Positions 32,216 through 59,889 of a DNA stretch of 60,080 bases are shown here, one piece after another. The notes below the pieces were generated by a model that saw nothing but the letters and a program-made list of their open reading frames with translations, searched no databases and was not told where the DNA came from. Position 1 is the first letter of the stretch, and the number at the start of each line of letters is the position of its first letter. This DNA comes from a virus. A program made the position numbers and the translations under genes. Location of the stretch: positions 1-60,080 of the IMG/VR virus record IMGVR_UViG_3300044535_000805; one strand, written 5' to 3'.

Positions 32216-32216
32216 G

Positions 32217-32849: not shown

Positions 32850-32854
32850 GAAGA

Positions 32855-32860: not shown

Positions 32861-32865
32861 CGTTA

Positions 32866-33465: not shown

Positions 33466-33475
33466 AATCTTAGCC

Positions 33476-33483
33476 TATAAATA
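33476..33483 (+). promoter_or_regulatory. Perfect T4 late promoter TATAAATA, 5 bases before ATG
   Basis: TATAAATA-TCTGC-ATG on the plus strand. Exact T4 late consensus, placed so that transcription would begin at or next to the ATG at 33489. It heads the plus-strand glycan run to 37429. Confidence 0.75.
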
Positions 33484-33488
33484 TCTGC

Positions 33489-36713: not shown

Positions 36714-37429
36714 TAGAAATTATTACCAGCTTTGACCAACGTTACCATGACCTAATAGGCAAGGATTGCGTGAGCAGTTTTTTAGAACACTGGGATTCAC
36801 AATTTCAGTTGACATGCTATGTGGAAGGCTTTGCCTTGCCCGAACATGAAAGAATCAAACAGATTGATTTTAACTCACAAGTGGATCCAGAGTATCATGC
36901 ATTGCAACAAGACACTGAGTATGGTGTACAAGTCAAAAAGTTTAGCAAAAAAGCATTCAGTGTGATACACGCCATGTATCACAGCACCGCAGATTGGATC
37001 TTGTGGCTGGATGCTGACGTTGTTACCATGAAGTCCGTGCCTGCACACTTGATCTTGGACTGTATGCGGTCTGAAGATCTTGCCATGTACATGGGAGTAA
37101 CCTACACTCAAGACAAGTCAGGTAACCCTGGATCATGGCTTGTGCCCGAAACAGGTGTGTTTGCTGTAAACACTCAGCATGAAAAGTTTGAAGAATTTAG
37201 AAACGAGTATCGTAGACGCTATGTTGAACGCGATCATGCTGACCTGCGTAGATTCTACGACAACGATGTGTTTGGTGCCGCAATCAATCTTGCTAGCGCA
37301 CCAGTGTATGATTTGTGTGAGGGATTTGCCAAGCCTTACAAAACACCTTTGCCGCACACAGTACTAGGTGAGTTCCTTATTCACTACAAGGCCAAGCACA
37401 GCAAGGCCGAATATCAAACAGACCAATAA
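36710..37429 (+). CDS. Glycosyltransferase-like protein, GT-A fold, 239 aa
   Basis: IITSFDQRYHDLIGKDCVSS opens a GT-A-type domain; WILWLDADVVTMKSVP supplies the DxD motif (DAD), and WLVPETGVFAVNTQ and YDNDVFGAAINL correspond to acceptor-site strands. The C-terminal FLIHYKAKHSKAEY ends with a catalytic-type HxxxKH segment. It ends the plus-strand run and overlaps the convergent gene at 37414 by 16 bases. Confidence 0.8.
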   Translation: MIEIITSFDQRYHDLIGKDCVSSFLEHWDSQFQLTCYVEGFALPEHERIKQIDFNSQVDPEYHALQQDTEYGVQVKKFSKKAFSVIHAMYHSTADWILWLDADVVTMKSVPAHLILDCMRSEDLAMYMGVTYTQDKSGNPGSWLVPETGVFAVNTQHEKFEEFRNEYRRRYVERDHADLRRFYDNDVFGAAINLASAPVYDLCEGFAKPYKTPLPHTVLGEFLIHYKAKHSKAEYQTDQ

Positions 37430-38229
37430 CTTTCGCTTCGAGGCTGAATAAGATCCTTGGCTAAACTACGCCCAGTTTCTTTTCGTTTGCCCTTAAGGTG
37501 ATCTAAGTATGCACCCCAGGGTGTGTTGATCAAGGGATGTCCTTCTCCTTTGATCAGTCCGTGACTCCAGTTTAGCTGGCGCCATTTGGGATGGGCCGCT
37601 TGTACTTCGTTGCGAGTCTCATCAAAAACCCAGCAGTCGTTCCACTCAGCCATGGTCATCAGTCGACCTGAATCATAGGCCAACTGAAACTCTTTGAGCC
37701 ATGTTAGTGTTACAGGGTCACGTAGGTTCATGCCGTATAAGCCACATTCACTAAACTTGCGTTCGCGTCCTAGATATGCTAGGCCTATCTTGGCGGGCAT
37801 TTGACTGGTAATAAATTCTTCAGTAATAGGTGTGTGGCACACCATGTCTGCGTCCATCCAAAACAACACATCAGCGTCACAGTTTGCCGCACTGTGAAAC
37901 ACCGAATATGCTTTGTGACTGAATCTAATAGCGTCCCAACGAAACCCTATACCAGGTGCTTTGCCTTTGCGATCTACAGGACCTGTTGCAACCAAGCCAC
38001 GTGCTCTAGGATCACCGCCCCAGCGTTGCTTGAAGGTGACAATTTCAGGACTCACAGCATGTAGATCTCTAACATGCAGATTGGGTGCGCTTTGACGTAT
38101 TGCACAGTCTTCAGTGTAAACGTATAGATCAATTTCTTGGGGCCAGTTTTGTAAAAACGTGTCAATCATGCGACTGGCATAGCGTTCGTAGCCGCTGGCA
38201 TTGAATGTTGTAACAACTGCGTATTTCAT
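37414..38229 (-). CDS. Glycosyltransferase-like protein, GT-A fold, 271 aa
   Basis: From the ATG at 38229, which overlaps the FkbM gene stop as ATGA. AVVTTFNASGYERYASRMI begins the fold; VLFWMDADMVCHTPI is the DxD motif, with WGGDPRARG and GLYGMNLRDP as further conserved-looking loops; QLNWSHGLIKGEGHPLINTPW supplies the C-terminal His. It is related in plan to the gene at 36710 but divergent in sequence and on the opposite strand. Confidence 0.78.
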   Translation of the reverse strand: MKYAVVTTFNASGYERYASRMIDTFLQNWPQEIDLYVYTEDCAIRQSAPNLHVRDLHAVSPEIVTFKQRWGGDPRARGLVATGPVDRKGKAPGIGFRWDAIRFSHKAYSVFHSAANCDADVLFWMDADMVCHTPITEEFITSQMPAKIGLAYLGRERKFSECGLYGMNLRDPVTLTWLKEFQLAYDSGRLMTMAEWNDCWVFDETRNEVQAAHPKWRQLNWSHGLIKGEGHPLINTPWGAYLDHLKGKRKETGRSLAKDLIQPRSESYWSV

Positions 38230-38873
38230 TTGGGTATCCATATTGTATTGCTCTTGCTCTTGACCGGCGCCGCTTCATATGGGCCGCACAAATCATTGAG
38301 CCACTGTCTGTGTTGATCTCGTTGACCGTTGTCCTCAATCAACAACCAAGGTCTATTGCGTTGTATAGTATCACGACTTCCGTCTAACACTGCATTTTCA
38401 AAACCTTCAACATCAATCTTGATCCAGTCAACTGATTCAAAATTGAATCGATCCAGTGTAGTTAACTCTCCAGTGTGCTTTTCAAACTCTGGATTGGGCA
38501 CAAACTCTGCTACTTGTTTGGTGTGTCCGCACTTGAGAGTTTGTAATTCAAATGTTGCTGTTTGATCTCGATCGCTGAGACCCAAGTTATGCAATTCTAC
38601 ATTGCTGTAATTTTCTAGATTTTTTTGCAAAACTTCAAAATTTTTAAGTACTGGTTCAAAACATATCACATGTTCAAAACGTTCAGCACTGGGCCTAGCA
38701 AATATGCCAATGTTGGCACCAATATCAATCATGGTACGCTTGCGTGGAATATTGTTGTACACATACCAACGGTAACGATTTTGATAATGCACATCTACCA
38801 CTTCCTGCAATCGTTCACTGAAAAATCCAGTTGGTGGTTCAGGAGAATACCAAAGTGAGTTTATTTTATACAT
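38226..38873 (-). CDS. FkbM family methyltransferase
   Basis: O-methyltransferase of the FkbM class, typically acting on sugar or polyketide hydroxyls. Motif I is MIDIGANIGIFARP, followed by VICFEPVLKNFEVLQKNL, the D-x-x-TLDRF segment, and the family hallmark WIKIDVEGFENAVLDG. 215 aa is the usual length. A TAAATA box ends 7 bases before the ATG. The gene is divergent from the RDGT member at 38892, 18 bases away. Confidence 0.9.
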   Translation of the reverse strand: MYKINSLWYSPEPPTGFFSERLQEVVDVHYQNRYRWYVYNNIPRKRTMIDIGANIGIFARPSAERFEHVICFEPVLKNFEVLQKNLENYSNVELHNLGLSDRDQTATFELQTLKCGHTKQVAEFVPNPEFEKHTGELTTLDRFNFESVDWIKIDVEGFENAVLDGSRDTIQRNRPWLLIEDNGQRDQHRQWLNDLCGPYEAAPVKSKSNTIWIPK

Positions 38874-38880
38874 ATATAAC

Positions 38881-38886
38881 TATTTA
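38881..38886 (-). promoter_or_regulatory. Late box TTAAATA, 7 bases before ATG
   Basis: Minus strand ATTAAATA-GTTATAT-ATG in the 18-base divergent gap between 38873 and 38892; predicts a leaderless late mRNA for the FkbM gene. Confidence 0.5.
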
Positions 38887-38891
38887 ATCAA

Positions 38892-41794
<2,903 letters not shown>

Positions 41795-41801
41795 ATTTTC
41801 C

Positions 41802-42254
41802 TTAAACTTGAATATCTTCCATACCTGCTGTGCGCAAACGAACTACATGTCCCATTTGCCACTGCTTGGAATCCAGGCCTTTCATGATGCCCAACCATCG
41901 GTTACGCAACAAGGCCACTTCGTTGATGATAGTTTCAAAGTCAATCACTTCGTCTTCACCATCAACATATTTTTCAGCATCCCTACTGGTCAGCGCACGA
42001 GCATAGGCTTCCAGATACTTTTGAAAATGCTTGCGTCGAATCTTGCGCAGTTGGATGTTGAGATAGTTTAACACAGCTTCAATTTCTTGCAGTTGGTTAA
42101 ATCTATGTTCAGTAATGCCCGGCAAGGTTGTGATGTTTTTCTCTACCAGGCCCCCAATACGACAATCCTTCTTGGCAGACTCAAGCTCGTGTTCATAGTG
42201 AGCAATAAAGTCTGGTATTGCATCAAGGCCGGCAGTTATACGACTATACCACAT
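41802..42254 (-). CDS. uvsY: Recombination mediator UvsY
   Basis: Loads the UvsX recombinase on gp32-coated ssDNA. 150 aa; GITEHRFNQLQEIEAVLNYL, RKIRRKHFQKYLEAYARAL, SRDAEKYVDGEDEVIDF and LRNRWLGIMKGLDSKQWQ strongly match the UvsY of T4-like cyanophages. It overlaps the radical SAM gene upstream by 11 bases and precedes metK. Confidence 0.92.
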   Translation of the reverse strand: MWYSRITAGLDAIPDFIAHYEHELESAKKDCRIGGLVEKNITTLPGITEHRFNQLQEIEAVLNYLNIQLRKIRRKHFQKYLEAYARALTSRDAEKYVDGEDEVIDFETIINEVALLRNRWLGIMKGLDSKQWQMGHVVRLRTAGMEDIQV

Positions 42255-43491
42255 ATTTTTTATACTTTACTAACCAAGGGAATAGCACAGTCCAGTCGGT
42301 GCCACGGCGACGATCTTTTTCTTCTAAAAATACAAAAAGATCACGGATATCTGTTGGGCTGTGAGTTGGCTGGCATATTTGTTGAAATATGCCTTTCATG
42401 TATTCATACGCTAGAGAATCCTCATCTGTGTCTGTGGGCAATAGACTTAAAATAGTATCCATATCTTTTTCAAATTCATCTCCGGGCAATATACCTGACT
42501 TTAAATAATTTGGTCCCGGTTCTACTCCTGAAAACCAATGTCCTATTTTACGCTCTTTGCGCCATTCTATTAATTTTGTTAAAAGTTCTGGCATAGTCTT
42601 AATTGTTAATACTGAAATAGTTTGATTGATCATAAGATATAACCATTTATACTGCATCAGATAACGAAAATTTTCCTCCCATCTTTTAAGATCGATTCCG
42701 TATCTCACATATTCTTGTTGAGGTCCCCAACAATCAATACTGACACTAATGTCAATTCTGGCAATCTTTCGATCTACTAATAGTTTACGAAATTTAGGTA
42801 TAAATGATGCCAATCGTTCTGGAGATACCATAAGATTGGTTACGATATTTAATTGGCAGTCAGGATTGGGATATTTGTCAACCATTTCTAAGAAATAATC
42901 AAATTCCTGTTGTATCAATGGTTCGCCACCTAAAATTCCCAATCGTTTAAGTTTAGGAAATCCATCAGGAAACCATTCCCAAAATAAAGGAACATAGTCT
43001 TTGTATTTGTTTTTAATAATAGGAAGGTGTACTCCTCCTTGTTTGAATTCTTTAAATTTGTTGTTTTCTGCTGTGTTGGTACTACTAAGACCATTGGGAC
43101 AATATAAACATCCCATGTTACAAGCACTACTAAAATATACTTCTAGTAGAGTAGGGCTAACGTTAACGGCCTGAAGATTATGTTCTAATTCTGGCGGTGA
43201 CATATCAGGTATGCTTAAATGGCGCATGCGATCGCTTGTGCCCCCTACTTCTTCAATTTTACGACAATAAGCACAACTATCTTCTGGCCATAGTCCCTGC
43301 AACATTTGTTGCCGATCCTGTATTTTTAATGGAGTATTATGAAATTGCATAAAGTCTTCTGGAGCAACTGTGCCAATGGCTGTTCGATGACAGCTTCCTG
43401 TTACACCATTATTAAGATATAATGTACTCCATGCCCATTTAAGTTGGCAAGCGGTATTTGTTTTTATTGGAAAATATTTTTTGTCAGGCAT
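42244..43491 (-). CDS. Radical SAM protein with N-terminal four-Cys module (family member A)
   Basis: 415 aa. The catalytic cluster is CNMGCLYC (Cys124, Cys128, Cys131), followed by ILGGEPLIQQEFDYF (the GGEP SAM-binding motif), NIVTNLM and IDISVSIDCWG strands of the partial barrel. The N-terminus carries a SPASM/twitch-like set Cys15, Cys34, Cys73, Cys76 (last pair CAYC) that should bind an auxiliary Fe-S cluster. EYVRYGIDLKRWEENF is the family-specific segment. Probable role: oxidation or modification of a sugar or peptide (family inference). It overlaps both neighbours. Confidence 0.88.
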   Translation of the reverse strand: MPDKKYFPIKTNTACQLKWAWSTLYLNNGVTGSCHRTAIGTVAPEDFMQFHNTPLKIQDRQQMLQGLWPEDSCAYCRKIEEVGGTSDRMRHLSIPDMSPPELEHNLQAVNVSPTLLEVYFSSACNMGCLYCPNGLSSTNTAENNKFKEFKQGGVHLPIIKNKYKDYVPLFWEWFPDGFPKLKRLGILGGEPLIQQEFDYFLEMVDKYPNPDCQLNIVTNLMVSPERLASFIPKFRKLLVDRKIARIDISVSIDCWGPQQEYVRYGIDLKRWEENFRYLMQYKWLYLMINQTISVLTIKTMPELLTKLIEWRKERKIGHWFSGVEPGPNYLKSGILPGDEFEKDMDTILSLLPTDTDEDSLAYEYMKGIFQQICQPTHSPTDIRDLFVFLEEKDRRRGTDWTVLFPWLVKYKKYVV

Positions 43492-44650
43492 TTTGTATCC
43501 AGTTTACAAAACTAGCAGGATAGATACTGAAATCTAAATTGCGGCGCCGGGCAAACTCCTTTAGGTATACAGATAATGTCTGCTGTTGTTGCGCTGTAAC
43601 TGGTGCCATCATGGTTTGTATAATGGTGTCACGAAATTCTATTTCACTGTTGTTTAATAGTTCAGACAAGGCGTGTTTACTATCAGCATCTAATACGTTG
43701 ACATTTAGAAATTCTGGTTCACTACAAAATTCATACTTGATATGTTTTCCTTTGAATTGTTCTACAAATTCAAAGAAACCAAATATTGTTAAATTGCTTA
43801 GTACGCAAGAAAAATACCATTCAAATCCCTGCTGTTCAATTTGTTTTAAATTTATTTCAAAATTTTCCCACGTGTTGCCGAATCGATTAAATTCGTAGAA
43901 TGCCCCACAGTTTTCTGCACTAACAATTAAGGTTATACGATTTCTATTTTTTAATTTTGTTAGTTGTTTTTCAAACCGGATTGGATCTACTCCCAGGCCT
44001 GTATAAATCTTGACTTGATTATGCTCGCTAATTTTGTTTACCAATTCTACTAAATTATTGTAAAGAAATGTTTCGCCGCCAGTGATATAAACACAATCGG
44101 TGGTGCGTAATCGTTCTATCTCATCAGTAAGTGTAATGTATCCTGTGCTTGCTTGATGTTCGGGCTGACTAATTTTTAATAGAAGTTTGTCTATTGGCGA
44201 AATAATAAATCTATCGTGCTCTAAATAAGACCCATGTTCGTTGATATCGCGCAACCATGCTGTACTATAATTTTTACAGCAATACGAGCAAGTCATATTA
44301 CAAGTTGACCCTAACATGATGTGTAAATTTTTTGGAGCATCAACTTGAACAGAATCAAACCGTTCTTTTTGTGTAGGGAATATCATTCTGCGACTAACAG
44401 TTCCAATATTCTCTGGTCTCCAGCAAACATCTTCACAGCTGGACACAGGCTGATTATCCAGCATCTGTTGCCGTTCGTTTTGCAAAGAAGGGGTATTAAA
44501 TAACTGCCCTGGATTTTGTTTGATCCAGTTTATATTGACTTGTTCAGGACGGGCGGCACAACATGAAAACGTCTGCCGCTTCTCTAGATCAACCGAAAGC
44601 CAGGTGAATTTTTCACTGCAATAAAAATCACCAGGCGGTAGTTGATCCAT
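43484..44650 (-). CDS. Radical SAM protein with N-terminal four-Cys module (family member B)
   Basis: 388 aa from the ATG at 44650, which shares one base with the previous stop (TGATG); a TTG one codon earlier is ignored. The catalytic cluster is CNMTCSYC (Cys117, Cys121, Cys124) and the SAM loop is VYITGGETFLYNN, with GGET in place of GGEP. N-terminal cysteines are Cys11, Cys30/31, Cys72 and Cys76, the last pair spaced C-x3-C rather than C-x2-C. It is the most divergent member. ENCGAFYEFNRFGNTWENFEINL holds the position of the family YVRYG segment. Confidence 0.85.
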   Translation of the reverse strand: MDQLPPGDFYCSEKFTWLSVDLEKRQTFSCCAARPEQVNINWIKQNPGQLFNTPSLQNERQQMLDNQPVSSCEDVCWRPENIGTVSRRMIFPTQKERFDSVQVDAPKNLHIMLGSTCNMTCSYCCKNYSTAWLRDINEHGSYLEHDRFIISPIDKLLLKISQPEHQASTGYITLTDEIERLRTTDCVYITGGETFLYNNLVELVNKISEHNQVKIYTGLGVDPIRFEKQLTKLKNRNRITLIVSAENCGAFYEFNRFGNTWENFEINLKQIEQQGFEWYFSCVLSNLTIFGFFEFVEQFKGKHIKYEFCSEPEFLNVNVLDADSKHALSELLNNSEIEFRDTIIQTMMAPVTAQQQQTLSVYLKEFARRRNLDFSIYPASFVNWIQNA

Positions 44651-44910
44651 CAATTTTCCCAGTCTTCTTCGTTGTAGTCTTCTTCTTCAGACTCTTCTTC
44701 ATCTTCTGCGTAGTCTTTGTCGTTGTCAAGATATGATGTAAGTGCTCGTTTGATATCTACATCGCCTTTGAAAGCGTTACGGATATCTTCAACGTCTGAA
44801 TCATTGTCCATTAGAATCTGAACCACAGTTTCTGCCGCTTCGTTGCGATCAACTGTGTTTACATACCTCTTGAGTTCTCCCCAAATTTCTGCGGCTACAT
44901 GTTCACTCAT
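44650..44910 (-). CDS. Small acidic phage protein downstream of uvsX, 86 aa
   Basis: EHVAAEIWGELKRYVNTVDRN is familiar from a conserved small gene next to uvsX in T4-like cyanophages; function unknown. The C-terminal 20 residues are almost all Glu, Asp and Tyr, a DNA-mimic-like acidic tail also typical of gp32 and UvsX partners. It overlaps uvsX by 4 bases and radical SAM gene B by one. Confidence 0.8.
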   Translation of the reverse strand: MSEHVAAEIWGELKRYVNTVDRNEAAETVVQILMDNDSDVEDIRNAFKGDVDIKRALTSYLDNDKDYAEDEEESEEEDYNEEDWEN

Positions 44911-45964: not shown

Positions 45965-47125
45965 TTAATTTCCTTCTTTAAATTTATATAACTCTTTAAA
46001 AATTTTACTACTGTCAATTTTTCTTCTAATATCAATATTTTTCAGGTTTTCAAATGTTGCGTTGAGATCTTTTTCAACTGGTGTAGATATGTAGTTTAAC
46101 ATTAAACTCAGAGAATTGTAAAGACAATAGGCAGGGTTTGATAGATTTAGTTTGCTCTGAATTTTATTTCTCAATAGTGTTAGCTCAGAATCTGGCAAAT
46201 TTCCCACATGCCAAACTTTGGGATTATCCAACGGGTTTACAATAAACGAATTTTCGTGAAACCCTAAATTTTGCAAAAATTCTATGCAATCTAATACTCC
46301 ATATGCGGTCATAATGCACCATGTGGAGTTGAAATTTATTTTTTCAAAGTCTTGTCTAAGTTGTTGTAAATTGTTAATGAACTGATCCCAGACTCCACCA
46401 TAACGCACATATTCAAATTCTTTGCCGACACCGTCAACACTCACTGTCCAATGTACATTTTTAAACTGTTTGAGCAAGTTATAAATCTCGTTGTTAATTA
46501 TACTTAGATTGGTGTTGATTCGTATTTCTACATTGGGATTAATCTCACGTATTTTTTTTAACAACACTATATTTTCTTTGATCAACAATGGCTCTCCACC
46601 TGCTAGATATATGTGCTCTACTGTGTTTAGATTACTGTAAATGTAATCCAAAGATTGTTGTAATGCATCTTCTTTTATATGTTGTGGTAAATTTAATTCG
46701 CTAGCCCAAGCACTACTTAGATCTGGTCCGCAATAGATACACGCAAAATTGCAAGTGTTTTTCCAACGAAGATCTAACATGTTCAATCTGTAATTACTTG
46801 TATTGTCAAAAAATTCTAAGTCATTATTTTTTAACGTTTTTAGATACCACACTCTGTTGCTAACCGAATTAGGACTAAATTTTTGATTTTTTTCTAATAG
46901 ATGACAGTGACTGCATCTATTGTGCAGGACGTCGTTTAACATGTCTTGTTTGATGAGTTGATTGTTTTCTCCGTGCAAAATATTCTTTAACGGCTGTGAG
47001 TTTATGTTTCCCAAAGTTTCGTTAGTAATAGCACAATTTCTTACATCACCGTCGGGCTGTATGTACACTCCTAACCAAGGCAAGGTACAAAAACTTTTTT
47101 TAGTTAGATATTCTTTTGGGGTCAT
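45965..47125 (-). CDS. Radical SAM protein with N-terminal four-Cys module (family member C)
   Basis: 386 aa. N-terminal auxiliary module: Cys13 in FCTLPWLGVYIQPDGDV, Cys31, Cys71 and Cys74 (CSHC). Catalytic cluster CNFACIYC (Cys125, Cys129, Cys132) with YLAGGEPLLI as SAM-binding loop, NTNLSIIN and WTVSVDGVGKEFEYVRYGG. This is the most typical member and aligns readily with E and F. It is 1-2 bases from uvsX on one side and SDR1 on the other, so it is translated in the gp32-uvsX operon. Confidence 0.9.
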   Translation of the reverse strand: MTPKEYLTKKSFCTLPWLGVYIQPDGDVRNCAITNETLGNINSQPLKNILHGENNQLIKQDMLNDVLHNRCSHCHLLEKNQKFSPNSVSNRVWYLKTLKNNDLEFFDNTSNYRLNMLDLRWKNTCNFACIYCGPDLSSAWASELNLPQHIKEDALQQSLDYIYSNLNTVEHIYLAGGEPLLIKENIVLLKKIREINPNVEIRINTNLSIINNEIYNLLKQFKNVHWTVSVDGVGKEFEYVRYGGVWDQFINNLQQLRQDFEKINFNSTWCIMTAYGVLDCIEFLQNLGFHENSFIVNPLDNPKVWHVGNLPDSELTLLRNKIQSKLNLSNPAYCLYNSLSLMLNYISTPVEKDLNATFENLKNIDIRRKIDSSKIFKELYKFKEGN

Positions 47126-47126
47126 G

Positions 47127-47672: not shown

Positions 47673-48211
47673 AATTTTGGACCCAATGATATATCTGAGA
47701 TAGTTAAATTATTGGTCTGTGCTATTTCTAACATAGATACCAACGCTCCGGCCCAGACATTTACATCTGCGGCAGGTGGCACTGTTTTGTCAGCACTGGT
47801 TGCAATGTTGCCCGGTCGAACTAGAGTAATTTTTATACCTGAGCGACTATTTCGTATTTGACTTACCGCTTGTTCTAGTGTGGTTTTTTGTATTCTGTAA
47901 GCCATCATATCCAGTCCAGGCAATACACTCACCGGATCTTGTGTCATCATGGTGCTGATGACCATGATGTGTTTACCACTACCTTTCCAACGCTGAACCA
48001 TCTCAAACAACAATTCGGTCTGCGCATAGCCTGCTTGTGCGTTGTTTATAAACATATCACAGGGTTCTATTGCGTCGGCTATTTTTGGTATCACTCGTAT
48101 GTTATGGCCTGTGCGGCGGCTTAGACTTAGTATCTCGTGACCACGTGCTTGGTATTCGTTACCCAGTGCCTGACCTATTCCAGCTGTGCCGCCTGTAATT
48201 GCTATTTTCAT
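47669..48211 (-). CDS. Short-chain dehydrogenase/reductase (SDR 2)
   Basis: 180 aa from the ATG at 48211 (overlapping the stop of radical SAM member D as ATGA; a frame to 48226 is not used). Cofactor loop GGTAGIG (7-13), FINNAQAG, VISTMMT at the Ser position, and Tyr105-x3-Lys109 (YRIQK). SDR1 is a clear tandem paralog: both share MKIAITG, CDMFIN, the LYELWKRWK/LFEMVQRWK helix and size. Confidence 0.88.
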   Translation of the reverse strand: MKIAITGGTAGIGQALGNEYQARGHEILSLSRRTGHNIRVIPKIADAIEPCDMFINNAQAGYAQTELLFEMVQRWKGSGKHIMVISTMMTQDPVSVLPGLDMMAYRIQKTTLEQAVSQIRNSRSGIKITLVRPGNIATSADKTVPPAADVNVWAGALVSMLEIAQTNNLTISDISLGPKL

Positions 48212-49173
48212 TGATAGTAATCCCAAAGTTTAATACCACGCAACTGATCTTGTGCATGTGTCCATGACTGTAGTTCAATTGTGTTGTCTCGATCCTGGCC
48301 CACTATGGATTTTAATTCATCTGGTACATCAGCAGTTCTTGTAAAATGATTATTGTACTTGACGTTTAGTACCTCTGGCTGTTCCAGCAATGCCCAGGAG
48401 TGATCAAGACCTTGCTGTTTTGTATATGCAAAAATATTCTTCAAGTTGCTGATATTTAACGAACTGACTGTGGTCCAGGTGTTTAGTTCTTGGATTCCCA
48501 TGTTTCTGTATATGTCAAGATTTCGTTCAAAGTTTTCCCACTTGATAGGCCAACGCACATAATCATGAACACGTCCGATACCATCCAGGCTCACTGTGAC
48601 TGTGACGTGTACGCCACGCTTGACCAGTTGCTGTATTTCTGGAATGACCATAGAACAGTTGGTGTTGATTCTAACGCTGACCACTGATGGAGGAATATTT
48701 TTAAGTATGTTGCGATAGTTTTTACTGGCACTGGGTTCACCACCATTAATATCCAAATGAACCACACGCTCTAATGGCAATTGCCAAAATGCCGCTGAGT
48801 TATCTACTATGGGATAGTTACTAGATATTAAACTGCCTATCTTGGTGCTTAGATTTTGATTGCAAGATTGGCAAGCACTATTACAAATGTTGTCTAGTAC
48901 CCCGCCAACAGTAAGATAGTCCAGGCGTGTTTGTTTTTTATCAAATTTGATAGCATTGAGTCTTATGCTGGTGTTGTTGATTTGTTCTGTTTGTTGACAC
49001 CGCACACATTCCTTGGGCCATGTATCTGGATTGCTTTTGATATCACTTAACCAATCACTAGCGTTCATTTTCTCTATGGTATCAAACTCAGGTGGATTGA
49101 CCATATGACCGCATCGACTCATGGTACCATTGGGATTAAATCTCACAAAGTGATCAAGTCTCGGGCAATACAT
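48208..49173 (-). CDS. Radical SAM protein with N-terminal four-Cys module (family member D)
   Basis: 321 aa, the shortest member. Module cysteines Cys3, Cys21, Cys56, Cys59 (CVRC); catalytic cluster CNSACQSC (Cys97, Cys101, Cys104); SAM loop DINGGEPSASKNY; RINTNCSM; TVSLDGIGRVHDYVRWP. The usual aromatic residue before the third Cys is replaced by Ser. It overlaps SDR2 and the sulfotransferase-like gene (20 bases). Confidence 0.87.
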   Translation of the reverse strand: MYCPRLDHFVRFNPNGTMSRCGHMVNPPEFDTIEKMNASDWLSDIKSNPDTWPKECVRCQQTEQINNTSIRLNAIKFDKKQTRLDYLTVGGVLDNICNSACQSCNQNLSTKIGSLISSNYPIVDNSAAFWQLPLERVVHLDINGGEPSASKNYRNILKNIPPSVVSVRINTNCSMVIPEIQQLVKRGVHVTVTVSLDGIGRVHDYVRWPIKWENFERNLDIYRNMGIQELNTWTTVSSLNISNLKNIFAYTKQQGLDHSWALLEQPEVLNVKYNNHFTRTADVPDELKSIVGQDRDNTIELQSWTHAQDQLRGIKLWDYYQ

Positions 49174-53042: not shown

Positions 53043-53048
53043 TATTTA
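53043..53048 (-). promoter_or_regulatory. Late box CTAAATA, 7 bases before ATG
   Basis: Minus strand CTAAATA-CACGACC-ATG (53035), overlapping the terminase stop codon; no Shine-Dalgarno. Confidence 0.55.
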
Positions 53049-54635
53049 GCGCATTACTGAAATGAAGGGCATGGGCTCAACCACGTTGTCTGAGTGGTCT
53101 TTAAGGTGTGCGTCCAGGTCTGAGTGAAATGTTTGCAACATCATCAGCATGCGTGTGGCCAACAGACTGGCCATCACAAGATCATCTGTTTCCCCAATCT
53201 TTGCTTGATAACTAGCCCCGTTGGCCACAAAGGTTTTGAGCTCACTTACCAGGGGTTTGGAGTATATCTTCATGCGCCCAGATTCTACCAGGATCTTGAA
53301 CTTGTTGCAGGCCACAATTTTACTTTTGTTTGTGGTTGTAAATCCTTTGCGGATTCTACGTCCTGAACTACCTTGTACTGAGTTGTCACTTAAGAAATAA
53401 CCTGGAATGTTTTCTTCACCGTATTCTGCTATGGATATCAGGGCCGCTTCTCCCAGCGTGTTGTTTTCCACACTGTAGTAGATGCTCTTGTTGTCTTTGA
53501 CCACAGTGTGCAGTTCTTTGATGATGTCGGCCATGATTTTAATCTGCGTTGGGACGTCAGTTTTGTTGTGCCGCCACTCTGCAATTTGTTCAGTGGTATC
53601 TGCTTCAAATACTTGTATAGCTGACGGATCTCCACCAGTACCCAAACTGGGGTCTAGTGCCACAATGTAGATGTGGTCTTTTTTGGGTTTGCGGTACCAG
53701 CGTACTTGACCAGTTTTTTCTACAGGTTCCACACCCTCAAGCTCTAGTAGTTTGATAGGCGATATCAGTGTTTCGTCATTGATCACAAAGTCGCAGTCCA
53801 TCTCTCGACGGAAACGTTCGTCCCCAAGTTGACTACGTTGTTCTTCTGCCCACTTGTCATCTCTATCTGGATGTTCACGCCAGAATGCTCTAAATGCTTT
53901 GAATCCGTTTATGCCCAGGCCATTGGGTCTTGGATTGCCAAACTCATCTTCAACTTTGTTGGCACCTTTCCAGATGTAAGCAAATTGATCCTCATCCGAG
54001 TTGGGGGTGCTTGTGATAATTGCCTTACCACCTGTTGACAGTGTGGGCGTAATAGAAGTCCAAAACTCTTTGGCAATTGTGGGTCGTACAAACGCAAACT
54101 CGTCTAGATACAGTAGCGTAATACTCATACCACGACCGGTATTTTCAGTAGTTGTTTGACTAACAATACGTGATCCATTGTCAAACTCTAGAGAACCTTT
54201 GTTGTAGCTGGTAGCACCTGCTCTAATATGATTGGGGCATAGTTCGTAAGCATACCGAATACGTTGCATGATCTCTTGTGCGCCCAGATATTTGTGTGCG
54301 GCAATAAGAATAGTTGCGTCAGGTACAAACATTGCATACCACAACAAGTAACCAGCGGCACTAGTTGACTTGCCTGTTTGGCGTGGCATTAGTGAGATAC
54401 TAAAACGATTTTGATGATAATTATTGATCAAACGTTTTTGATATTCAAACGGATGATACAACATCTTGCCCCGAACAGGATGCTGAATATAAAAGAAGTT
54501 GTCCATGAAATACATGGCACCGTCAACCGGATCTGCACAACGAGCAAAATCTTCTAGTTCTTGCTCGGTAAATGTTTCTCGTCGATGCGGTGCCTTGACC
54601 AGTACTGTGTCAAGTGTGTTTTTTGCGCCAATCAT
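53046..54635 (-). CDS. 17: Terminase large subunit gp17
   Basis: Packaging motor and headful nuclease. 529 aa; ATPase Walker A MPRQTGKST (83-91), Walker B LLYLDEF (174-180), coupling motif STPNSDED; RNase H-like nuclease with Asp328 (YIVALDPSLGTGGD), Glu in YYSVENNTLGE and Asp in TDDLVMASLLA. This is the gp17 arrangement. It overlaps the SGNH gene upstream by 26 bases. Confidence 0.96.
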   Translation of the reverse strand: MIGAKNTLDTVLVKAPHRRETFTEQELEDFARCADPVDGAMYFMDNFFYIQHPVRGKMLYHPFEYQKRLINNYHQNRFSISLMPRQTGKSTSAAGYLLWYAMFVPDATILIAAHKYLGAQEIMQRIRYAYELCPNHIRAGATSYNKGSLEFDNGSRIVSQTTTENTGRGMSITLLYLDEFAFVRPTIAKEFWTSITPTLSTGGKAIITSTPNSDEDQFAYIWKGANKVEDEFGNPRPNGLGINGFKAFRAFWREHPDRDDKWAEEQRSQLGDERFRREMDCDFVINDETLISPIKLLELEGVEPVEKTGQVRWYRKPKKDHIYIVALDPSLGTGGDPSAIQVFEADTTEQIAEWRHNKTDVPTQIKIMADIIKELHTVVKDNKSIYYSVENNTLGEAALISIAEYGEENIPGYFLSDNSVQGSSGRRIRKGFTTTNKSKIVACNKFKILVESGRMKIYSKPLVSELKTFVANGASYQAKIGETDDLVMASLLATRMLMMLQTFHSDLDAHLKDHSDNVVEPMPFISVMR

Positions 54636-55356
54636 CCATTACTCTTTCTGCAAATATTTTGTGTCCTTCAGGACCAGCATGCATGTAGTCACGGGCATAG
54701 CCAATCTCTTCTCTACTGCGAGCAAAATAATCATGTGCATTGTATGTTTGGCATTTGATGTCAAGCTCTGCACACAGTCCTTGCACTGCCAACTTGTTCT
54801 TTGCATTATTTAAGTCGGCATTGCGATCATTTATCAACCACTGCTGTATGGCTCGGTCTGTGATATCAGTCTGGCCAGGCATATACGTGTTGTGCGGCCA
54901 CTGAGAATCTTCAGTGATTAGATCAAACCTATGTTTGGGTGGGGCACACATTACAACTAACCTGGGCAACAGCCGGGGAACCCAATATTTTGCCAACATA
55001 AAACAAGTGTCAGCACTGGCACCTCCCCACGAAAGATTATACACTGTGAGCTCTAACTCTTGTCCTACTAGTGTGGGCCATATGCTTTCTAAAGGTAATC
55101 CCATGCCAACACTGTAACTGCATCCTAAAGTAACTATGCTGGCCGCACTGGGATCAAACTCTTCAGCTCTAAAACCATTTGAATTGATTTTGTATGTTAT
55201 TGCTCGGGGCCTGTCCCATCCATGCCGGCGGAAATGCTCTTGGTGTTTTGGGTCTTGTAATAATTTCTGATAGTTTTCTTCGGTGTCAGTTGACAACCAC
55301 TCAGTAGTCTGCCCCGCATACTTCATGCCAAAGTGCCAAGGTGCGTTATTTGACAT
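54610..55356 (-). CDS. SGNH/GDSL-like hydrolase family protein (paralog 6)
   Basis: The fullest SGNH of the six, 248 aa. An extra N-terminal segment of about 70 residues (HFGMKYAGQTTEWL, YKINSNGFRAEEF) precedes block I IVTLGCSYSVGMGLPLESIWP; block II is YNLSWGGASADTCF, and block V RDYMHAGPEGHKIFAERV has Asp and His in the right spacing. The N-terminal segment resembles that of bacterial secreted or cytosolic SGNH acetyl-esterases. It overlaps radical SAM member E by 11 bases. Confidence 0.78.
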   Translation of the reverse strand: MSNNAPWHFGMKYAGQTTEWLSTDTEENYQKLLQDPKHQEHFRRHGWDRPRAITYKINSNGFRAEEFDPSAASIVTLGCSYSVGMGLPLESIWPTLVGQELELTVYNLSWGGASADTCFMLAKYWVPRLLPRLVVMCAPPKHRFDLITEDSQWPHNTYMPGQTDITDRAIQQWLINDRNADLNNAKNKLAVQGLCAELDIKCQTYNAHDYFARSREEIGYARDYMHAGPEGHKIFAERVMDDWRKKHT

Positions 55357-56503
55357 CCGGTACCTCTTTTAATGCCACTGCCATGTCCGGCCATAAGTCT
55401 TCAAAGCGAGTTACTTTCTTTAGTTTTTGCTCAATGTCTCTGTGCCAATCAGTTACATACAAATCTCTATCCATTGGGGGCAAGTAACTGTTATCGTTCA
55501 AGGTTAACTTGTATCTTTCCAAGATATCAAGCGATATGTTTTGTTGTCCTTGATACTTGGTTAGAACAAGATCAATTTCATCTATAGCTTGTTGTCGAAC
55601 ATCCATGGGCATGCGTCTAATGTCCAGCTCTTGCGGATGGTTTAACTCGCACCAAAAAATATCCAAGCTCATAGACTGACAAAAATCATAGTACTCTGTC
55701 AAGTCCCAAGCACAATAAATGCTGTAAGCAGGATGTGCTGTGACTCGTTGGTTGTCACGCTTCATTGTTTGAATGTTCTTAACAAATTGATTCCAGTCAG
55801 CACCATTGCGCACATACTCAAATTTTTGTTGATTGGCGTTGTCAAAGCTGATCATCCAGCTGACTCGGGGCCATGTCTTTAGTTCTTGATAGATGGGATT
55901 GTTTTCAAGTTCCACGCTGAGGTTGGTTGTGACCAGTACATTGACTTTGTTGGAATCAAGGTGTTTTAAAAACTCCCCAAGTCCTTTTTGTAACAAGGGT
56001 TCGCCACCGCCCAAAGTCAGCCCTTGTAAACTGTGTCCGTTGGTCTTGGCCAGTTCAATTAAGTCTTGATGTTCGTTGCGATCATGGTTGATAGGGATTT
56101 TCAGAGCACTTTGCCAAGCTGTGCTGGTTTCAGGATTGCAATAGGTGCAACTGAGATTGCAGAGATTGCTCCAGTTTACCACTAGGTGTTCTAGATCAAA
56201 CCAGGATATATCATCATTGATTGCATCTATAGTCTTTTGATCTGCATGGCGCTGAGTGCGTCCACTGTGCCCAGTTGTATCTTCAAGACGTTTACACCAT
56301 GAGCAAGCATCGTGCCATTTGCCGTCAGCCATGTGTTGTTTTATGTCTTTGAGTTCGGGTCCGTGTATTACTTCTTGAATGGTGTTTTTCTTGATATTGC
56401 CCACAGATGACAAACAATGCATGCAAGGAGTAACACGACCATTTTGGTCAATGTTGAGGCTGGTCCAGGGTGCAGGACAAAATGTAGGGCCGTTAGATAT
56501 CAT
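55346..56503 (-). CDS. Radical SAM protein with N-terminal four-Cys module (family member E)
   Basis: 385 aa. Module: Cys9 in FCPAPWTSLNIDQNGRV, Cys27 (and Cys30), Cys67, Cys70 (CSWC). Catalytic CNLSCTYC (Cys115, Cys119, Cys122) followed by NPETSTAW, SAM loop LTLGGGEPLLQ, VTTNLSVE, WMISFDNANQQKFEYVRNG. Closest to member F, with which it brackets the 2OG oxygenase gene; both gene borders overlap. Oxidative tailoring of a shared substrate is inferred from this tight cluster. Confidence 0.9.
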   Translation of the reverse strand: MISNGPTFCPAPWTSLNIDQNGRVTPCMHCLSSVGNIKKNTIQEVIHGPELKDIKQHMADGKWHDACSWCKRLEDTTGHSGRTQRHADQKTIDAINDDISWFDLEHLVVNWSNLCNLSCTYCNPETSTAWQSALKIPINHDRNEHQDLIELAKTNGHSLQGLTLGGGEPLLQKGLGEFLKHLDSNKVNVLVTTNLSVELENNPIYQELKTWPRVSWMISFDNANQQKFEYVRNGADWNQFVKNIQTMKRDNQRVTAHPAYSIYCAWDLTEYYDFCQSMSLDIFWCELNHPQELDIRRMPMDVRQQAIDEIDLVLTKYQGQQNISLDILERYKLTLNDNSYLPPMDRDLYVTDWHRDIEQKLKKVTRFEDLWPDMAVALKEVPDVK

Positions 56504-57057
56504 AGTGTTTTGACCCAGCTGTAGCTGGTGAGTCTAAATGTGTTTTTTGGCACAGGATTTAACATAGCATGCCACAGCAGGTTTCTGTAGCCGTCCGTGT
56601 TGGGTCTGTTGACCATGATGTAACCTGTGTTGGCTCGCATGGGAAACTGATGACGTTTGCTAGCAGGATCTTGGTACCAGTAAAACGAAGTCCCAAGGTC
56701 TTCGTTGGCTCCAATCCAGGTCAATTGCATACTGCCCGGCATTTCGCCATCAGTGTGCATGGAGCAAGTAAAGCCGGGCTCATCAACCCACCATGCAGTG
56801 CCCATGTAGTCTTCTAATTCAAAGCCCACAGCGTTGCCAATGTCGGTCCATATGCGATGACAAGCCAGTTCCCACTCTATGATCCAAGGCAACACGTTGT
56901 CGTCGATTCTTCTGCGGGCCCAGCTTTCCTGCCCTTCTTGTCTGTGCCAAGGCAAGTCTAACCAAGGTGTGGCTAATATTTTGGCCACCAGTTCTGGGGG
57001 CATTGCATTGTCAACTCGATACAAGTTGGGTTCGTTATCAACAGGTGCTATTTGCAT
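56500..57057 (-). CDS. 2OG-Fe(II) oxygenase
   Basis: 185-aa double-stranded beta-helix dioxygenase. Iron ligands His101 and Asp103 (SMHTDGE) and His163 (LWHAMLNPV), with Arg175 (FRLTSYSW) to hold 2-oxoglutarate. Such proteins hydroxylate peptides, nucleic acids or small molecules and are frequent in T4-like phages. Here the gene overlaps a radical SAM gene at each end (4 and 10 bases), so co-translation with both is likely and a joint pathway is plausible. Confidence 0.87.
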   Translation of the reverse strand: MQIAPVDNEPNLYRVDNAMPPELVAKILATPWLDLPWHRQEGQESWARRRIDDNVLPWIIEWELACHRIWTDIGNAVGFELEDYMGTAWWVDEPGFTCSMHTDGEMPGSMQLTWIGANEDLGTSFYWYQDPASKRHQFPMRANTGYIMVNRPNTDGYRNLLWHAMLNPVPKNTFRLTSYSWVKTL

Positions 57058-58199
57058 AGGAACTCCAGTTCAGGCCAAAGTCGCACAAACTCACCTGCTT
57101 TGTCAGGATGGTATTTGTGTTCAATATCATAGATGTGTTTCCAAAACGCAATATCAACATCAGATACTTTGACAATGTCCAGGCGCTCATTGTATGTTTT
57201 GAGTGCTTGATCAAAAAATACTTGTTCAGACTCTGTTACCAAGTTGTTGGCATACAAGTATTGTATTTCATCTGCGGCAAGTTTTGCAACACTGGCACCG
57301 TGAGTAAATGGATCCAAGTACTTGGGCTGGAACAAGTTTTGCCACAAGATGGTTGTGTCTGTTTCCTGGGCAAATTGTTTTAGTTCACGCAGGCGTGTGG
57401 CATTGTAAATATTGTACACAGCATGTATGCCGCCCCAGTGCCCGTTGTTTTTCATCAAGTTTTTGACCACGGCTAGGTTATTCTGCAACATTGACCAAGA
57501 ACCGCCATAACGAACATATTCAAAACGTTCACCTACATTGTCAAAGCTCATGCTCCAGCCGACTCGTTTGCGCTGTGCTAGTTTCCGGAAGATTTTGTTT
57601 TTTTCTAAGTCAACATTCATGTTGGTGATTAGCGTAACAATAGCTGATTCTGGTATGACATCCAGTAATCGTTCATTTTCTGGCAGTAGTAGTGGCTCGC
57701 CACCTACCAAGGCCACTTCATGTATGTGACCATGGTGTTGTTCGATGAAGTCACACACCTGTTCATAGTACGGACGAGAGCCTGACCGGAATGGTACCTG
57801 CTTTAATGCGGCCCACTTTGAGCTGGCACCAGGATCACAATAGTTACAACTCAAATTGCAAGTTGTATTCCAACGCACATCCACAATCACAGGATAGTGA
57901 TACTGGTCCCCGGCTGTGGCATAATCAAAATTGGGGTTTACATTGTTGTGCCATTGGCGTTCTGAGTCTGCACCAAAACGTTCTGCCTGCACACAGTTTG
58001 AGCAGTATTCGTGTGCTTGACCTTGTGCAAGACTAGTTCGCACTTCAGCCATTGTGCTGTTGTTTAAAACTTCCGTGATTGTGTTTGTGTTGAGGTTACC
58101 CAGCATGTTGGGGTTGCCGGCACAACAGGTTTTAACATCGCCACGGGGGTTTATGTGTAGGCCACGCCAGGGTGCGGCGCAGTAGAAATTATCGCTCAT
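57048..58199 (-). CDS. Radical SAM protein with N-terminal four-Cys module (family member F)
   Basis: 383 aa. Module: Cys7 in YCAAPWRGLHINPRGDV, Cys25/26, Cys66, Cys69 (CSNC). Catalytic CNLSCNYC (Cys114, Cys118, Cys121), SAM loop LVGGEPLLLPEN, LITNMNVDL, GWSMSFDNVGERFEYVRYGG. Its N-terminal module is the best preserved of the family (CCxGNxxxLGNLNT). It opens a late-type operon F - oxygenase - E - SGNH - terminase; a TAAATA box lies 4 bases before the ATG. Confidence 0.9.
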   Translation of the reverse strand: MSDNFYCAAPWRGLHINPRGDVKTCCAGNPNMLGNLNTNTITEVLNNSTMAEVRTSLAQGQAHEYCSNCVQAERFGADSERQWHNNVNPNFDYATAGDQYHYPVIVDVRWNTTCNLSCNYCDPGASSKWAALKQVPFRSGSRPYYEQVCDFIEQHHGHIHEVALVGGEPLLLPENERLLDVIPESAIVTLITNMNVDLEKNKIFRKLAQRKRVGWSMSFDNVGERFEYVRYGGSWSMLQNNLAVVKNLMKNNGHWGGIHAVYNIYNATRLRELKQFAQETDTTILWQNLFQPKYLDPFTHGASVAKLAADEIQYLYANNLVTESEQVFFDQALKTYNERLDIVKVSDVDIAFWKHIYDIEHKYHPDKAGEFVRLWPELEFLCK

Positions 58200-58217: not shown

Positions 58218-58655
58218 TCAGTTGCACCAAGATGTTTTGGCTTCACCGTAATATTCACGGGCAAACCCGTTGGCAATAAGCATTTGACGCAGACTTTGTC
58301 CGTTTAGCAGGACATCTCCCAGCACACGACCACCATACTTGTCCCAGTCCATGAGCACAACCTGTCGTTGTGAAGCCTGGGCAACGGCTGCTTTGGTAAA
58401 GGCTGATGCCGCTTCGCCACGCTGTGCTTCACTGGGGCAGGCTGCGCGGAATCCTTTTTCTGGAGTATCCACACCGTACACTCTGATACTGAGTTCTTTT
58501 TTGAGTGGTGCAGGCAAAAAGTCTGCTTGAAAAGCCACTGTATCGCCGTCTATGACTCTGGTGATCACAGCGTCATAGGTCACGCCAGGACGTTGTCGGG
58601 GTTGTGCAACAGCCAGCACAGGCATGATCAGCAAGAGTAGTAAGAGTTTTTTCAT
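58218..58655 (-). CDS. Secreted thermonuclease (staphylococcal nuclease family)
   Basis: 145 aa with a signal peptide (MKKLLLLLLIMPVLAVA) and an SNase OB-fold: VIDGDTVAF (metal Asp), IRVYGVDTPEKGF (Arg and Glu of the active site) and WDKYGGRVLGDV (second catalytic Arg). All catalytic positions are present. The ATG at 58655 starts the signal peptide; the frame to 58742 is not used. An exported nuclease in a lytic phage may clear DNA in the periplasm or block competitors (inference). Two Cys could form a disulfide. Confidence 0.9.
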   Translation of the reverse strand: MKKLLLLLLIMPVLAVAQPRQRPGVTYDAVITRVIDGDTVAFQADFLPAPLKKELSIRVYGVDTPEKGFRAACPSEAQRGEAASAFTKAAVAQASQRQVVLMDWDKYGGRVLGDVLLNGQSLRQMLIANGFAREYYGEAKTSWCN

Positions 58656-58662
58656 ATTGATA

Positions 58663-59889
58663 TTAAGTGTAGTAAACAATTTCACCTGTGGTGGGATTGT
58701 ATGCCATTTGGTAGAACCCTGCAGGTAATCCACTGGATCCACCGTTGCGCACAGGTTTCACTGTGAATGTGTTGGCAGTGGTTTGATTTAGTGCCGAGCC
58801 AGTGGCGTTCAGGATGATTGAGTTGTTGGCTTGATTAACGTCACCAGCATTAGATCCAATTGCTATAGCATAGGTTCCTTGACTTGAGTTACCAGCAAAC
58901 TCTCCTATGGCTATTGCACTGTTACCTTGTGAGGTCATACCAGCACTGACTCCAACTGCTACTGTTCGCTCACCCTGTGCTGAATTACCAGCATACGATC
59001 CTATGGCTACTGCTATAGAACTTTGATTGGAAAATCCAGCTCGTTGTCCCACTGCTACTGATTGACTACCTTGTGTGGTTCGTCCGGCGCTGTCTCCGAC
59101 TGCTACAGAATATGCACCTTGTGTGGTTTCCCCAGCTTGCTTACCAACAGCAACTGATTGAATGCCTTGTGTGGTTTGGCCAGCACCAACGCCAACAGCA
59201 ACTGATTGTATGCCTTGTGTAGTTTCGCCAGCATATAGTCCAATAGCAACTGATTGTGTGCCTTGCGTAGTTGCGCCTGCACTGTGGCCAATGGCCACTG
59301 CGTCGTCACCTTGCAAAGCAACACTGCCACCGGCATTTTGTCCAATTGCCACTGCTGTTGATCCTTGGGTGGCGCCAGCATTTTGTCCAATTGCAACACT
59401 TTGATTACCTTGACTGTTCAGTCCAGCACCTTCGCCAATGGCCACAGAACTTATGCCTTGAGCATCATACCCGGCCGATGAACCAATGGCCACAGCATGG
59501 GTGCCTTGAGTGGTGTTGCCACCAGCATTTAGACCAATTGATATGGCGGCGCCGCTTTGACCGCCGGCACCGGCTGCTTGACCCACGGCTATTGCCGCAT
59601 TGGCTTGACCGTCAAATCCGGCATTTTGACCTAACGCTATAATAGTAGGGCCACTCGCACCAGTTTTGTTGCTCAACAGTGCCCAGGTTGTTGCACCACC
59701 AGGTGTGGCCACTGCTGTGAGGTCGCCTAGTGCGTTGCCCACATACACAATGCTTGTGGTCTGATCTACCACAAGTTCGCCAGGTCTAGCATTGCCGTCG
59801 TACTCAGCCAAGGTAACTTGGGCGTTGTCCTTCATTGCGGCACGTGATATGCCAGTAATGTTGTCGTATGGTGGAGGTGGATTGGCCAT
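58663..59889 (-). CDS. Tail fibre/adhesin with YadA-head-like repeats
   Basis: 408 aa. The N-terminal part (TLAEYDGNARPGELVVDQTT, IVYVGNALGDLTAV) is a fibre attachment-like domain. From about residue 75 to 350 the sequence is a run of 14-17-residue units with the consensus SVAIGxxAGxxTQGxQ, as in the left-handed beta-roll of trimeric autotransporter heads (YadA type). The C-terminus (NQANNSIILNATGSALN then QTTANTFTVKPVRNGG) resembles the head-to-neck end and fibre caps. It lies 1 base downstream of another virion gene. Confidence 0.88.
   Translation of the reverse strand: MANPPPPYDNITGISRAAMKDNAQVTLAEYDGNARPGELVVDQTTSIVYVGNALGDLTAVATPGGATTWALLSNKTGASGPTIIALGQNAGFDGQANAAIAVGQAAGAGGQSGAAISIGLNAGGNTTQGTHAVAIGSSAGYDAQGISSVAIGEGAGLNSQGNQSVAIGQNAGATQGSTAVAIGQNAGGSVALQGDDAVAIGHSAGATTQGTQSVAIGLYAGETTQGIQSVAVGVGAGQTTQGIQSVAVGKQAGETTQGAYSVAVGDSAGRTTQGSQSVAVGQRAGFSNQSSIAVAIGSYAGNSAQGERTVAVGVSAGMTSQGNSAIAIGEFAGNSSQGTYAIAIGSNAGDVNQANNSIILNATGSALNQTTANTFTVKPVRNGGSSGLPAGFYQMAYNPTTGEIVYYT
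58830..59640 (-). repeat. In-gene repeats encoding AVAIGxxAG units
   Basis: About sixteen degenerate 42-51-base units; the segment CTTGTGTGGTT recurs with little change between 59070 and 59230, so neighbouring copies are recent duplicates. Confidence 0.8.

Follow-up and report, generated by a model that had tools for sequence, protein, structure and literature searches.

A cassette of oxidative and SGNH-type genes is swapped between two conserved flanking genes, encoding an SNase-like nuclease and the terminase large subunit (TerL), in a clade of large tailed phages. Its first gene, encoding the radical SAM enzyme rSAM_A, is near-constant, and the genes that follow, encoding a 2OG-Fe(II) oxygenase, a second radical SAM enzyme (rSAM_B) and an SGNH-like protein, are optional add-ons in a fixed order. 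The phages that carry it are widespread, large and uncultured, and cassette members are swapped among genomes that are otherwise near-identical. We favor, with a probability of about one half, the reading that the cassette is modular and performs an oxidative tailoring whose putative substrate is a glycan, made by the phage or belonging to the host.

Gene content of the cassette

The window analyzed here is a 60,080-nucleotide stretch of the IMG/VR record IMGVR_UViG_3300044535_000805 (Table 1). Its preliminary description reported four overlapping genes that run into the terminase gene, and we recovered the same arrangement, with overlaps of 10, 4, and 11 bases within the block and of 26 bases with the terminase gene. 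Comparison of rSAM_A with its close relatives revealed purifying selection (dN 0.05, dS 0.79), and homologues of this one gene were found in 309 stretches; with dN far below dS and hundreds of homologues, the four genes are not chance reading frames. The overlaps had also been taken to imply one shared product. This argument is not supported, since 30 of the 48 same-strand neighbors in the whole window overlap, the terminase gene included, which makes overlap the rule in this genome and uninformative about function.

Table 1. Positions of the cassette, its flanks and related genes in the window
Feature	Coordinates	Strand	Assignment
rSAM_A	57048..58199	minus	383 aa; N-terminal-twitch radical SAM enzyme, near-fixed cassette member
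Oxygenase	56500..57057	minus	185 aa; predicted 2OG-Fe(II) oxygenase, distinct unnamed family
rSAM_B	55346..56503	minus	385 aa; second N-terminal-twitch radical SAM enzyme, optional member
SGNH	54610..55356	minus	248 aa; SGNH-like hydrolase or acyltransferase, optional member
TerL	53046..54635	minus	Terminase large subunit; PF03237, PHROG terminase
SNase-like nuclease	58218..58742	minus	PF00565; upstream conserved flank of exchange site
Third N-twitch radical SAM	48208..49173	minus	Second cassette; NF033640 122 bits, below cut-off
Fourth N-twitch radical SAM	45965..47125	minus	Second cassette; NF033640 262 bits
Fifth N-twitch radical SAM	43484..44653	minus	Between UvsX and UvsY; NF033640 162 bits, just below cut-off
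Sixth N-twitch radical SAM	42244..43491	minus	Between UvsX and UvsY; NF033640 215 bits
MetK	40694..41794	minus	SAM synthetase; TIGR01034 484 bits
Glycan island	30696..40794		Pfam scan
IscU-type Fe-S scaffold	6222..6608	minus	PF01592 E 1.5e-52; 7 of 12 records
A-type (IscA-type) Fe-S carrier	5915..6238	minus	In tandem with IscU; PF01521 E 3.3e-18; 7 of 12 records

The two radical SAM proteins around the oxygenase are indeed paralogues (29% identical), and both exceed the curated cut-off of 170 bits for the NCBIfam model NF033640 (N_Twi_rSAM), rSAM_A scoring 214 bits and rSAM_B 218 bits; the name of this family describes a domain order, not a reaction. The CX3CX2C motif of rSAM_A (C114, C118, C121) and its twitch cysteines (C7, C25, C26, C66, C69) are invariant in 20 homologues, as are the radical SAM motif and the N-terminal cluster cysteines of rSAM_B in an alignment of nine. 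The twitch region of rSAM_A matches BtrN, an aminocyclitol dehydrogenase, in the PDB (E 0.0008). The predicted model of rSAM_A is of low confidence (pLDDT 67) and lies closest to anSME and SuiB, and also to EpeE; peptides are often the substrate of twitch/SPASM radical SAM enzymes.

The oxygenase is predicted, from its sequence and its model, to represent a distinct 2OG-Fe(II) oxygenase family that carries no name. Its HxD...H...R site, already described as intact, is strongly conserved, as the putative iron ligands H101, D103, and H163 are invariant in 27 homologues and the 2OG-binding R175 is nearly so. The AlphaFold2 model (pLDDT 94.4) adopts a double-stranded beta-helix fold and matches the 2OG oxygenases P4H, SnoN, PolD, PasI, and OkaE in the PDB (E about 5e-6), the best match being the Pseudomonas putida prolyl-4-hydroxylase, the structure of which has also been solved with EF-Tu. 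No family in Pfam, PHROG, or NCBIfam matched the protein, a PDB sequence search with its profile returned no homologous solved structure, and one close predicted fold, uncharacterized, was present in BFVD (TM 0.94). A profile of the TEKxW protein also gave no match to PDB sequences.

In the SGNH protein, S80, G112, D223, and H226 (the block I Ser and the block V Asp-x-x-His among them) are invariant in 18 homologues, and its PDB profile match, to a lysophospholipase L1-like esterase, is weak (E 0.018). Block III has no recognizable Asn, and no GxND motif was seen, the position being occupied by APPxxR; we count this apparent lack of the Asn against our preferred explanation.

Two profile scans revealed no relative of the oxygenase and no close relative of rSAM_A in the GTDB species genomes covered. 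On these scans a bacterial origin was rejected, and bacterial gene context could offer no help. Among the cultured phages of INPHARED, rSAM_A, the oxygenase, and the SGNH protein had no match, and the radical SAM matches were distant only and nearly all in Vibrio phages.

Conserved order and exchange between the flanks

The preliminary description would have been refuted had the four genes occurred only separately in relatives; instead, three separate scans place the loci directly upstream of TerL. This was the case for 73 of the 75 SGNH loci assessed (among 80 listed), for 53 of 56 rSAM_B loci (one further locus was cut) and for 70 of 74 oxygenase loci. The order is fixed across loci with one exception, and in two of them (L013 and L014) rSAM_A and the oxygenase are fused in a single 564-aa reading frame. 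Thus, the order and the position beside the packaging gene, as proposed in the preliminary description, are kept in metagenomic phages, but the whole set is present in only 18 of 98 dereplicated TerL loci; rSAM_A stands alone in 23, and the rest carry subsets or none. These counts reject an obligate four-gene operon, and the set is better read as a near-fixed enzyme with optional, exchangeable add-ons than as one unit. Of the oxidative tailoring system first proposed, the intact oxygenase site and a chemistry absent from the cultured phages searched have stood, whereas the obligate unit and the overlap argument have not.

Within the set, rSAM_B is tied to the SGNH gene: among the dereplicated rSAM_A loci, 15 contain rSAM_B, and all 15 contain SGNH as well. 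That rSAM_B never occurs without SGNH holds in the main clade and is broken by the distant loci L332 and L333, where rSAM_B lies by itself beside TerL. An association between the oxygenase and SGNH by Fisher's test was lost on independent tree pairs.

TerL, about 51% identical to that of PA5oct-like Pseudomonas jumbo phages, borders the exchange site on its downstream side as a conserved flank and stands outside the pathway. At two empty sites (L188 and L207), the SNase gene adjoins TerL without a cassette, across gaps of 31 and 45 bases. Among pairs whose TerL proteins are at least 97% identical (97–100%), cassette content differs in 16 of 32, and in the most discordant pairs the rSAM_A proteins are only 61–76% identical. 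In one such comparison (L020 and L103), TerL is 100%, p693 98%, and SNase 94% identical, yet rSAM_A is 64% identical and the add-on is an oxygenase in one locus and rSAM_B in the other. Such content differences between near-identical flanks are the pattern expected from recombination in the flanks. On the TerL tree, the minimum numbers of changes were 6 for rSAM_A, 25 for the oxygenase, 21 for rSAM_B, and 22 for SGNH, counts that are approximate because only 32 of the 95 branches are well supported and TerL itself may recombine.

Additional radical SAM, supply and glycan genes

Four further N-twitch radical SAM genes lie in the window, two of them in a second cassette that sits between gp32 and UvsX. 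Related records contain tandem N-twitch radical SAM arrays beside a Nol-like carbamoyltransferase, SGNH, AMP ligase, and oxygenase homologues, with up to 13 NF033640 matches in one 364-kb record. IscU probably serves in cluster supply and MetK in co-substrate supply; a SAM synthetase was not found in 16 related records and was rejected as a general partner. By Pfam scan, the same genome carries glycosyltransferases and sugar-nucleotide enzymes, its glycan island comprising GT17, GT8, and GT2-like genes, FkbM and other methyltransferases, a nucleotidyltransferase plus mannose-6-P isomerase domain, and a GDP-mannose 4,6-dehydratase. The reading of positions 49154–49780 as a sulfotransferase was a guess from motifs only, Pfam having matched 1 of 15 members (E 0.087), and was dropped.

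Discussion

In the mechanism that we propose, all these phages would share a substrate on which rSAM_A carries out a radical C–H modification. The oxygenase would then hydroxylate, oxidize, or epimerize the same substrate, rSAM_B would follow with another radical modification, and an O-acyl group would be added or removed by the SGNH protein. The substrate would most likely be a saccharide, either a nucleotide sugar or a phage-made or host surface glycan. The numerous radical SAM enzymes would probably be supplied by the phage-encoded IscU and IscA-type carrier and, in the present phage, by MetK as well. Swapping an add-on would alter the final decoration, as might be expected if adsorption, superinfection, or detection by bacterial defence systems depended on that decoration. 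More tentatively, the site may be a combinatorial locus in which a fixed radical SAM scaffold step is joined to swappable add-ons that yield different final decorations, so that near-identical phages switch chemical type much as bacteria change their O-antigen serotype.

The saccharide reading draws on the glycosyltransferases, GDP-mannose dehydratase, nucleotidyltransferase, and FkbM genes of the window, on the tandem radical SAM arrays of relatives with their neighboring Nol-like carbamoyltransferase and other homologues, and on the BtrN match of the twitch region. Against it, the cassette itself has no glycosyltransferase or sugar-nucleotide gene, being separated from the glycan genes by some 14 kb or more. 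The closeness of the low-confidence rSAM_A model to anSME and SuiB, given the frequent action of twitch/SPASM enzymes on peptides, also speaks against a sugar and for a SPASM/twitch-type radical SAM enzyme and a prolyl-hydroxylase-like oxygenase modifying a peptide or virion protein, in a RiPP-like manner or otherwise, as would EpeE among the fold neighbors and the EF-Tu-associated P. putida enzyme as best oxygenase match. We hold this to be improbable, since the overlapping genes leave no space for a precursor gene within the cassette, no RiPP equivalog model reaches its cut-off, and the twitch region matches BtrN.

Hypermodification of DNA bases, in which radical SAM enzymes and the oxygenase would elaborate a modified pyrimidine or purine and variant swapping would evade restriction, would suit the fast exchange of a chemical module in a restriction arms race and the location beside TerL, and a sub-threshold HMUDK_hel match lies at 8251–8736 (E 0.0076). 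Carbamoyltransferases, too, weigh against a purely saccharide reading, as a metagenomic enzyme modifies 5hmC in DNA (PMC8670742) and members of that family adjoin the radical SAM arrays of relatives here. Unlike the contigs of that study, which are marked by thymidylate synthase, 12 related records of up to 364 kb, possibly incomplete, yielded no thymidylate synthase-type gene in searches whose positive controls worked; the oxygenase fold is closest to P4H, SnoN, and OkaE rather than TET/JBP, and SGNH and sulfotransferase-like partners are uncommon in DNA modification, so we regard base modification as unlikely. Independent small-molecule or host-metabolism (AMG) enzymes, gathered at a shared insertion hot spot without a common substrate, would account for the dispensability of any add-on, for the solitary rSAM_B of L332 and L333, and for the overlaps, which are common in the window. 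The near-fixed order, the rSAM_A–oxygenase fusion, the tie of rSAM_B to SGNH, and the near confinement of these genes to the TerL-side site make this likewise improbable. The swapping of cassette members between near-identical phages suggests that a chemical decoration, for which a sugar chain is the likeliest bearer, can be changed and matters in the contest with bacteria.

Among known systems, radical SAM cassettes of pelagimyophages differ between otherwise similar host-recognition regions (PMC7029224), and the cassette described here resembles them in its presence or absence in otherwise similar, glycosyltransferase-rich marine T4-like phages. It differs in lying at the SNase/TerL junction and in its defined rSAM-2OG-rSAM-SGNH order, and the likeness drawn here is one of description. 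One section of a study of T4-like marine viruses (PMC5332604) reports 12 radical SAM genes and an A-type carrier in TARA_ERS488813_N000010 and IscU in other genomes, whereas the present window has both Fe-S genes and six radical SAM genes; that section describes no oxygenase-linked cassette, exchange, or mechanism. In the polyoxin pathway, the radical SAM enzyme PolH and the 2OG oxygenases PolD and PolK act, or are proposed to act, on a sugar nucleoside (PMC5365060). PolD is a fold neighbor of the phage oxygenase; the polyoxin pathway is a Streptomyces antibiotic pathway, and the parallel is by analogy only.

These phages are rich in radical SAM enzymes of the N-terminal-twitch type, and we found no reaction for such enzymes. 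Because natural presence and absence variants occur on near-identical backgrounds, the cassette offers a ready experiment on their function. These phages bring their own Fe-S scaffold and, in this phage, a SAM synthetase, and a switchable decoration, if true, would add a radical-chemistry arm to the contest between phage and host.

Gene organization and active sites of the cassette

Within the 60,080-base virus record, four minus-strand open reading frames were located exactly where the preliminary description had placed them. Inside the cassette they overlap by 10, 4, and 11 bases, and the set extends 26 more bases into the terminase large subunit gene (TerL). That description took such overlap as a sign of one shared product; because 30 of the 48 same-strand neighbor pairs in the window overlap, overlap alone is uninformative.

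Judged from sequence, the active sites are conserved and the anatomy of the cassette is defined. Both radical SAM proteins, rSAM_A and rSAM_B, passed the curated cut-off of NF033640, a radical SAM subfamily with an N-terminal twitch domain, and in homologue alignments the radical SAM and twitch cysteines were invariant in both. The oxygenase matched no named family in Pfam, PHROG, or NCBIfam; its predicted model (pLDDT 94) displayed a 2OG oxygenase fold with the iron/2OG site intact (H101, D103, H163, and R175). In BFVD, the TM score fell from 0.94 for one uncharacterised phage protein to approximately 0.65 for the following matches, which, at the level of predicted structure, identifies the oxygenase as a distinct family. 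The SGNH protein retains S80, D223, and H226, while the block-III Asn was not seen in the homologue alignment.

Coordinates of the cassette and associated features in the window
Feature	Position	Remark
SNase-like nuclease	58218-58742	Upstream flank; apparent hydrophobic signal-like stretch
rSAM_A	57048-58199	
Oxygenase	56500-57057	
rSAM_B	55346-56503	
SGNH	54610-55356	
TerL	53046-54635	Downstream flank
Radical SAM insertion	45965-49780	Between gp32 and UvsX
Radical SAM insertion	42244-44653	Between UvsX and UvsY
MetK (SAM synthetase)	40694-41794	Matches PHROG 1569 (family of unknown function)
HMUDK_hel (5-hmdU DNA kinase helical domain) match	8251-8736	Sub-threshold, E 0.0076
IscU (PF01592) and A-type (IscA-type) Fe-S carrier (PF01521)	5915-6608	Tandem
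Glycan island		GT17, GT8, FkbM, nucleotidyltransferase/isomerase, GDP-mannose dehydratase

A conserved site with modular content

Viral contigs were scanned separately with the oxygenase, rSAM_A, SGNH, rSAM_B, and TerL; all relatives are metagenomic contigs, many of them partial, and near-identical contigs were dereplicated by rule rather than by curation. The proposed adjacency was borne out, as the genes lay immediately upstream of TerL at 70 of 74 assessed loci for the oxygenase (2 more were cut before TerL), 73 of 75 for SGNH, and 53 of 56 for rSAM_B (1 more was cut). Scan-detectable homologues of these three genes are therefore almost confined to this site. L332 and L333 have a more divergent TerL with rSAM_B as its immediate upstream neighbor; neither rSAM_A nor SGNH accompanies it there.

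The order rSAM_A, oxygenase, rSAM_B, SGNH, TerL, as given in the preliminary description, is conserved with the single exception of contig L020, but the four genes do not form an obligate unit. The 98 TerL loci left after dereplication were pooled from several scans and are thus no census; all four genes occurred in 18 of them, rSAM_A alone in 23, rSAM_A+SGNH in 16, rSAM_A+oxygenase+SGNH in 12, rSAM_A+oxygenase in 7, rSAM_A+rSAM_B+SGNH in 7, no cassette gene in 13, and other states in 2. Wherever rSAM_A directly neighbors TerL, the two genes are separated by -31 to +30 bases, too little to accommodate a hidden gene. SNase lies directly beside TerL in two cassette-free contigs (L188 and L207), and rSAM_A and the oxygenase form one fused protein in L013/L014.

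Exchange between near-identical phages

On the TerL tree, in which several branches are weak, the minimum numbers of changes were 6 for rSAM_A, 25 for the oxygenase, 21 for rSAM_B, and 22 for SGNH; well-supported branches alone gave 12, 10, and 8 independent differing pairs for the oxygenase, rSAM_B, and SGNH, respectively. Comparing pairs directly, without a tree, gives a clearer picture. Between L020 and L103, identity is 100% in TerL, 98% in the neighboring p693, 98% in gp32, and 94% in SNase, but only 64% in rSAM_A, and one carries the oxygenase where the other carries rSAM_B; the pairs L101/L054, L209/L210, and L226/L034 displayed the same pattern. Cassette content was unlike in half of the 32 pairs with TerL identity of at least 97%, so the cassette differs on near-identical phage backgrounds. 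At TerL identities of 95-97%, mean identity was 78% for rSAM_A versus 91% for gp32; since the adjacent, structural-type p693 was likewise variable (74%), the cassette is not the sole fast-changing part. The cassette genes are under purifying selection.

Related genes in the window and in relatives

Four further N-twitch radical SAM genes occupy two insertions between core genes of the window. The insertion between gp32 and UvsX encodes two of these, two short SDR-like proteins, and a sulfotransferase-like protein (K31, S35-S36, R65xPxxRxxS). MetK was not found in 16 related records. IscU and the A-type carrier each occurred in 7 of 12; their tandem is common to the larger relatives.

As many as 13 family-model matches were counted per relative (74-364 kb), several of them arranged as tandem arrays that include a Nol-like carbamoyltransferase, SGNH proteins, and an AMP ligase. 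Oxygenase homologues occur in the L131 array and beside radical SAM arrays in G013 and G002. The tandem N-twitch arrays of the jumbo phage relatives L129 (1-19001), L130, and L131 also hold uncharacterised TEKxW proteins. Three radical SAM genes lie close together in Vibrio phage K566 (L135, 16549-20951); they are the nearest annotated relatives (~21-24% identity), and this phage is a possible laboratory model.

Proposed chemistry

rSAM_A would modify, by hydrogen abstraction, a substrate shared by these phages, and the oxygenase, rSAM_B, and SGNH may then act on it in further steps that are optional. A saccharide is the probable substrate, given the saccharide enzymes of the genome, the carbamoyltransferase-linked arrays, the match of the rSAM_A twitch part to BtrN (PDB search, E 0.0008), and the analogy to PolH of the polyoxin pathway, a radical SAM enzyme placed with the 2OG oxygenases PolD/PolK in one sugar-nucleoside pathway (PMC5365060). 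The carbamoyltransferases also bear on the main rival, modification of DNA by the cassette, as such enzymes are able to act on 5hmC (PMC8670742); against it, a thymidylate synthase-type gene was not found in 12 related records. Peptide modification is possible, as the low-confidence rSAM_A model was closest to anSME and SuiB.

Radical SAM cassettes that vary between similar phages are known from pelagimyophages (PMC7029224), and T4-like viruses rich in radical SAM genes, some of them with Fe-S assembly genes, have been described (PMC5332604). The open-access literature searched contained no account of the rSAM-oxygenase-rSAM-SGNH set, of where it is inserted, of the rules by which its modules combine, or of its exchange. 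That the cassette is exchanged so fast suggests that hosts or rival phages exert selection on it.
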